Below are positions 28,309 to 30,278 of a DNA stretch of 48,312 nt, in pieces. Under the pieces are notes generated by a model. That model was not told the origin of the DNA. It did not search any database and saw nothing but the letters and a program-made list of their open reading frames with translations. The DNA is from Planctomycetota bacterium (GTDB taxonomy: Bacteria; Planctomycetota; Planctomycetia; Gemmatales; Gemmataceae), in assembly GCA_016873095.1 (NCBI GenBank), contig VGYC01000032.1, positions 1 to 48,312 on the forward strand, read 5' to 3'. Each line of letters starts with the position of its first letter. Position 1 is the stretch's first letter. Made by a program: the position numbers and the translations under genes.

Positions 28309-29646
<1,338 letters not shown>

Positions 29647-29690
29647 TTAGCCGCGCCACGGAGTCGAAGACTTCGCGTCGCTGCCAAGTG

Positions 29691-30149
29691 TCACGTGACT
29701 GCCTTCAGCCATCCTCCCGCGTAATTCAACAACGGATTCCATACGCCGATCATGGCGTTGATCACATAGAGCACCAGCACCGGCAGGTACATGTAGATCA
29801 TGAACATGCTCAGCCCCTGGAAGAAGTCCTCCAGGGCGAAGAAGACAAAGAAGATGCCGGCGGCTGCCGGGATGTAGCCCATCAGCACGAGCAAGTGAAT
29901 CGGCCCGGCCGGAAAGCCGGCCCACCCTGCCAGCATGTAATCGACGATCACGAAGCCAACCGTCATGACCGCGACCAGCAGCGTGGCGAACGTGCACCGC
30001 CACCAAAGCGCATTCTTCGGCATGTCGATTGGCTTGGGCCCCTGACGGATCTTGTAGGCGGCGAAGGCGAGCGGGATATTGACGGGCCACAGGGCCGCGA
30101 TCGTCACGGTCCAGGCCAGAGCCCCGCGCACGAAGTGATACAGCTCCAC
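29691..30149 (-). CDS. Uncharacterised four-helix membrane protein, first gene behind the TPP riboswitch
   Basis: A 152-residue hydrophobic protein starting with GTG (MELYHFVRGALAWTVTIAAL). Four helices are predicted at about residues 9-32, 50-72, 84-106 and 110-135, with a short basic loop (KIRQGPKPIDMPKNALWW) after the first and a conserved-looking acidic turn (FALEDFFQGL) between the third and fourth. I do not recognise ThiT, PnuT, YkoE, ThiV or another known thiamine transporter, and it is smaller than these. The start codon is only 8 bases from the 3' strand of riboswitch stem P1, which suggests translational control. The next gene is thiC. Thiamine-related uptake or membrane function is an inference from that context. 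Confidence 0.8.
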   Translation of the reverse strand: MELYHFVRGALAWTVTIAALWPVNIPLAFAAYKIRQGPKPIDMPKNALWWRCTFATLLVAVMTVGFVIVDYMLAGWAGFPAGPIHLLVLMGYIPAAAGIFFVFFALEDFFQGLSMFMIYMYLPVLVLYVINAMIGVWNPLLNYAGGWLKAVT

Positions 30150-30156
30150 ACGCTAC

Positions 30157-30240
30157 TCGCTTTCCCACGCCGGCATGATCCGGATCAGGTCCCAGGGTCT
30201 GCTCTCAGCCCGGCGTCGTCCCGCCGGACACCCCTAGCGA
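30157..30240 (-). promoter_or_regulatory. TPP (thiamine pyrophosphate) riboswitch
   Basis: Read on the minus strand the Thi-box is clear. Stem P1 is TCGCT (30236-30240) with AGCGA (30157-30161). AGGGGTG follows, then the P3 arm TCCGGCGGGACGACGCCGG, GCTGAGA, ACCC, CTGATCCGGATCATGCCGGCG for P4/P5, and TGGGAA before P1 closes. These are the conserved pyrimidine- and pyrophosphate-binding segments of the class. The downstream GTG start lies within 8 bases, so repression probably hides the start region. Confidence 0.95.
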
Positions 30241-30250
30241 TTCTCCCTGA

Positions 30251-30278
30251 ATTGTATCTCTCGCGCCTTCTGCTTCAA
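30251..30278 (-). promoter_or_regulatory. Promoter of the riboswitch-membrane protein-thiC operon
   Basis: On the minus strand TTGAAG (30273-30278) and TACAAT (30251-30256) are separated by 16 bases. The predicted transcript start falls just before riboswitch stem P1. Confidence 0.6.

Follow-up and report, generated by a model that had tools for sequence, protein, structure and literature searches.

The window, that is, the whole stretch of 48,312 nucleotides analysed here, carries on its minus strand a TPP riboswitch, a small membrane protein gene and thiC, in that order. The aptamer (30145..30245, minus strand) matches RF00059 over the full model (positions 1-105) with 62.6 bits and E = 5.1e-10 in cmscan, exceeding the gathering score of 54.3 bits, and an RF00059 scan of the 8.36 Mb assembly returned this TPP match alone. 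Immediately upstream, a consensus scan found a single promoter-like site, TTGAAG-16-TACAAT (30251..30278, minus strand), with 9 of 12 matches and 0.1 expected in shuffles; we treat it as a candidate only. The riboswitch is followed by a 152-aa ORF (29691..30149, minus strand) with a GTG start and four predicted membrane helices, then by a 68-nt gap (29623..29690, minus strand) in which a GGAGG Shine-Dalgarno-like sequence can be read ahead of the next gene, and then by thiC, encoding phosphomethylpyrimidine synthase (28309..29622, minus strand; PF01964, E = 3.3e-188; TIGR00190, 662.7 bits against an equivalog cut-off of 460). This layout had been proposed from the letters alone, in an interval (29691-30278) that combines promoter, riboswitch and ORF. 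Infernal, the check named by that sequence-only reading, confirms the TPP riboswitch, and the cmscan, ORF and TIGR00190 results uphold the gene order with the membrane gene first in the unit. The GTG was said to lie about 8 bases past stem P1, which agrees with what we find: P1 ends in AGCGA, then come seven bases and then the GTG. As for the promoter placed ahead of the riboswitch, the site at 30278-30251 fits by consensus match only.

The possibility that the membrane ORF is no gene, but a frame left open by chance in a GC-rich region, draws on the many long antisense frames that the region holds. The homologues rule this out and we regard it as practically negligible: frame, start and length are kept in nine further genomes with the same linkage. 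Moreover, nine homologues with 36-54% identity to the window protein contain no stops or broken frames, and mismatch by codon position (0.44/0.31/0.55) leaves the second positions best conserved. The homologues open with M-E-[LI]-Y just where the window ORF begins, and an in-frame TAG stands two codons 5′ of its GTG; therefore, the GTG start is assigned correctly. On these comparative grounds the membrane ORF is a real, conserved gene.

A first search with the single window sequence against 198 relatives gave nine clear homologues, window included (E = 1e-22 to 1e-99), plus two weak ones. With a profile, 11 of the 102 genomes of the order were found to carry a homologue (window included), all of them in the window's own family, Gemmataceae, and none in the neighbouring family. 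The carriers include four Gemmataceae or planctomycete MAGs, of which one was recovered from Lake Baikal and another from groundwater, and the gene does not occur in genomes without thiC. The two divergent members, in genomes G036 and G007, score 32.3 and 36.6 bits respectively with a profile built without them, against at most 13.7 bits for 4000 shuffled copies searched with the same profile. Extending the profile search to 392 genomes across the phylum gave no further homologue beyond one partial match, 63 residues within a 612-aa frame of G464, which we take as chance. One hit of the first search (L012 in G148, E = 1.5e-4) was not recovered by the profile and was rejected, and tblastn against plasmids gave no match to the membrane protein. 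The sequence is too short for a membrane-protein tree to resolve the deep branches.

The relatives have 78 TPP sites, spread over 77 genomes; reading downstream, we found thiC at every one. As in other thiC-led RF00059 (THI element) operons, the aptamer of the window scores above the curated threshold and stands upstream of thiC, the usual target; what differs is an extra membrane gene, which sits exactly between riboswitch and thiC at 10/78 sites here. These linked carriers are the window genome (G000), G026, G003, G020, G040, G072, G064, G053, G076 and G036, and their proteins share 18-54% identity with that of the window. Because the arrangement is repeated in 10 genomes, it is not due to chance. 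The sequence-only reading had suggested looking for homologues behind TPP riboswitches in other planctomycetes, and 10 of the 11 members, window included, are so placed. Homologues outside any thiamine context, which it held to count against its interpretation, come down to one of the 11: G007, the distant eleventh homologue, lies amid unrelated genes, and that genome's own riboswitch runs straight to thiC.

The membrane gene is absent at the other 68 sites. Sixty of these have thiC within ~156 nt and six have a long ThiC form, whilst G005 has a 380-nt leader with no ORF and G054 a thiC with an internal deletion. In this last case (L057, G054:C61) the riboswitch-linked thiC is without its middle, the N-terminus being joined to the C-terminal part. 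In G018, G067, G074, G082 and G196 (L036-L039, L055) the TPP riboswitch precedes a long ThiC with an N-terminal extension, a form that branches off deeply and separately in the thiC tree. On that tree the presence of the membrane gene needs four changes, at least three of them on well supported branches, compared with 9.6 for shuffled labels; the gene is thus clustered, yet gained or lost several times. G012 belongs to a genus that includes five carriers and has neither riboswitch nor membrane gene nor thiC, reflecting either joint loss of the three or an assembly gap. Beyond thiC, no conserved neighbours were found across nine carrier loci; three carrier loci of one genus share one upstream gene.

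We envisage the membrane gene and thiC in one transcript, on which the leading riboswitch mediates repression by TPP. With TPP scarce, the aptamer would be open, allowing the membrane protein as well as ThiC to be made; when B1 is plentiful, the membrane gene should be off. The conserved GGGAA(A)GC box lies at the 3′ end of the aptamer, and the start codon lies 1, 3 and 9 nt past it in G003, G036 and the window genome, respectively. Given such short distances, TPP probably blocks ribosome access directly in these three genomes, where the box or the adjoining stretch is the likely ribosome site and would be hidden by TPP. The distance from box to start is 48-116 nt in the other seven linked carriers. 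An alternative (anti-thi-box) pairing downstream of P1 was considered as a mechanism and dropped, the shuffle test being unconvincing: of seven genomes, six gave a pairing clearly no better than shuffles and one was borderline (34/500 shuffles). Between aptamer and start no intrinsic terminator was found in the window.

Four hydrophobic segments (residues 10-28, 56-74, 86-104 and 112-130) are present in the window protein, with positive charges mostly in the loop following the first; together with an all-helix AlphaFold model, they bear out the four-helix membrane protein that had been described. The nine close members share the invariant residues Y4, F6, A12, W13, G37, R51, D70, P80, H85, F104, G112, P123, W137 and L148; in all eleven, only G37, R51, G112 and P123 are invariant, position 108 being D or E. 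The window protein has one cysteine and no cysteine motif or redox domain. Searches of Pfam at E up to 10 placed none of the 11 members in a family, and searches of NCBIfam, PHROGs and PDB sequence profiles found no relative of the protein. The sequence-only reading had thought it unlike the known transporters; in accord with this, the Pfam models of ThiT, ThiW, PnuT, YkoE, CytX and ThiV are absent among the matches of the 11 members at E up to 10. AlphaFold models, built from five sequences, are all-helix (mean pLDDT 64.6 for the window protein; 72.1 for the L107 homologue), and Foldseek with these models gave no match below E 0.5. MAPEG proteins (LTC4 synthase, MGST2, FLAP), which likewise have ~150 aa and four helices, come up repeatedly in the weak structural matches, with a Foldseek probability of at most 0.84 and VIA Z 6-7. 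However, the match to LTC4S (E 0.78, TM 0.48, Z 6.5-6.9) is under the level trustworthy for helical bundles, the fold matches as a whole lie within the noise for such bundles, and no member matches PF01124 (MAPEG) at E up to 10. The motif R-x3-N-x2-E of LTC4 synthase is absent at the conserved arginine. The MAPEG-like matches may reflect the common helical-bundle arrangement only. Compared by helix count, an ECF S-component has about six helices, plus ECF-T/A partners, against the four predicted here. Judged by these comparisons, the membrane protein is a new family within a known regulatory setting.

Few regulons are as well mapped as those of TPP riboswitches, and the membrane proteins under their control have mostly been transporters. 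The genes that these riboswitches control in other bacteria mostly encode thiamine enzymes, with transporters making up ~30% on average (PMC3766115), and known transporters of this kind include ThiT, PnuT, ThiV, ThiBPQ, ThiXYZ, YkoEDC, CytX, ThiW and ThiU (PMC6593275). Our protein shares with these its small size, the membrane, the TPP riboswitch and an adjoining thi gene; it differs in having no profile match, four helices, ~150 aa and no salvage enzymes found for free thiamine or HMP. Membrane proteins under TPP control commonly import free thiamine or HMP (PMC6593275, PMC3766115). However, the pathway content of the genomes argues against such a role here. ThiE is present in all 33 genomes tested and ThiL-like matches in all 20 tested (18 above cut-off), and TPK was found in 0/33; TenA and ThiM were not found in carriers, and the Pfam models of known thiamine and precursor transporters are unmatched in the 11 members. 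TenA was discarded as a carrier trait, the PF03070 (TenA family) matches in carriers G000 and G076 having turned out to be PqqC, which is what the model picks up in the window genome. A true TenA does occur in G007, and G032 has a PF03070 match. ThiM was likewise discarded, as the three PF02110 (ThiM family) matches examined by Pfam are NAD(P)HX dehydratase and the rest look alike. A fusion of Clp_N-like, ThiD2 and ThiE domains is encoded in the window genome and seven other carriers; G072 has the ThiD2-ThiE fusion without a Clp_N match, and G026 has a short ThiE frame and no ThiD2. ThiD2 phosphorylates HMP-P, not HMP (PMC12345177). Across the salvage enzymes surveyed (TPK, TenA, ThiM and ThiD2), imported thiamine or free HMP would be without a recognised use here. 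This weakens the importer, which we consider improbable. From the earlier suggestion of a new thiamine or HMP transporter, transport as such is kept as the best guess, whereas uptake of free thiamine or HMP has lost ground with the missing TPK, TenA and ThiM and with the ThiD2-ThiE fusion.

The thiamine phosphate synthase of the window genome is itself a Clp_N-ThiD2-ThiE fusion (L113:4998-6521, G000:C126). The same fusion also occurs in the non-carrier G023, and the G007 version has no Clp_N match. Two genes from the fusion in the window genome lies a gene for a phosphonate-type periplasmic binding protein (L113:2491-3417), and weak NMT1-family matches are found near thiE in G003, G007, G022, G038 and G072. 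Elsewhere in the window genome, PqqB-like, PqqC and PqqE-like genes stand in a row (L109:369-3428, G000:C77), and this genome probably makes pyrroloquinoline quinone.

The protein could also be a conditional accessory of ThiC, for example in electron supply, iron-sulphur cluster protection or membrane anchoring. It is encoded directly upstream of thiC in 10/10 linked cases and only in thiC genomes, thiE being located elsewhere, and membrane-associated factors affecting thiamine synthesis are known in Salmonella (apbE, rseC). RseC is one such factor, and both RseC and ApbE are membrane-associated and tied to the HMP branch. A title cited in PMC11729352 connects apbE with thiamine synthesis in Salmonella, and RseC has an N-terminal four-cysteine motif and two helices (PMC11729352). 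With one cysteine and four hydrophobic segments, the membrane protein departs from the four-cysteine, two-helix pattern of RseC, and it has no cysteine motif, another helix count and no sequence match to RseC or ApbE. Moreover, 68 TPP sites lead to a related thiC without the membrane gene, and the two genes have to be adjacent: these genomes have a single TPP riboswitch, at thiC, and a place next to thiC therefore tells little beyond TPP control. A conditional accessory of this kind seems to us unlikely. A membrane factor that ThiC cannot do without, the other role suggested earlier, is also unlikely, because most relatives have thiC without the membrane gene, as do most TPP-thiC operons of the same family.

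A further explanation is that the membrane protein has an unrelated function, such as in general stress or the envelope, its gene having come under TPP control on insertion between riboswitch and thiC and then been kept. The distant homologue of G007 among unrelated genes would fit, as would the protein of G036, far diverged yet in the same position. Nevertheless, the gene never left the thiamine operon in 10/11 genomes at identities of 18-54%, and a neutral insertion is disfavoured because it would be lost or moved. We therefore think an unrelated function rather unlikely.

Our preferred reading, held tentatively and with slightly less than even confidence, is of a Gemmataceae-restricted, four-helix inner-membrane family, cotranscribed with thiC and shut off by TPP, that may serve the thiamine economy as a conditional transporter of small molecules. 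What the sequences themselves show is the riboswitch, the order of the genes, the conservation, the four hydrophobic helices and the confinement to thiC-bearing genomes; a TPP-repressed transporter is our best single guess at the function and is drawn from this setting. The most likely role, uncertain as it is, would be that of a transporter used by some lineages and not by others, since the patchy presence of the gene (10/78 sites, four changes on the tree) is more readily expected of an optional transport trait than of a partner essential to an enzyme. The transporter might take up a phosphorylated form (TMP, TPP or HMP-P) or export a pyrimidine by-product; either would be likelier than salvage of free thiamine or HMP because TPK, TenA and ThiM are missing and ThiD2 is fused to ThiE. 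Several points speak against a transporter: the protein has no sequence link, and no confident link by fold, to a known one; no enzyme was found able to use imported thiamine or free HMP; the distant G007 homologue lies away from thiamine genes; and, as said above, a place next to thiC tells little beyond TPP control. That TPP controls a membrane family where free thiamine and HMP salvage seems to be missing, the protein serving phosphorylated intermediates, pyrimidine export or conditional partnership with ThiC, strikes us as possible, though we would sooner doubt it than assert it. If true, each of these roles would add to the membrane functions so far described under B1 control.

Genes of unassigned function preceded by TPP riboswitches have been reported from metagenomes (PMC2211319). 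Ours resemble them as uncharacterised genes behind TPP riboswitches; however, the metagenomic cases are mostly single, two resembling each other, whereas here there is a family with 10 linked members in fixed order. A limited literature search combining TPP riboswitches, planctomycetes and thiC found no paper. A lineage-specific membrane protein of a new family, together with ThiD2 and the apparent lack of salvage enzymes, would point to an unrecognised step of B1 or precursor handling in some planctomycetes. The membrane gene is an orphan well suited to testing, being small and having a single regulator and a single neighbour.

Lastly, the gap between the membrane gene and thiC contains strong palindromes, e.g. 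TTTAGCGCCCGCG...CGGGCGCTAAA, in G040, G072, G076 and G053 (L006, L007, L009, L010). The exact palindrome motif has few other copies (3-20 kb examined per genome). The palindromes vary from one genome to the next and have the look of repeat units.
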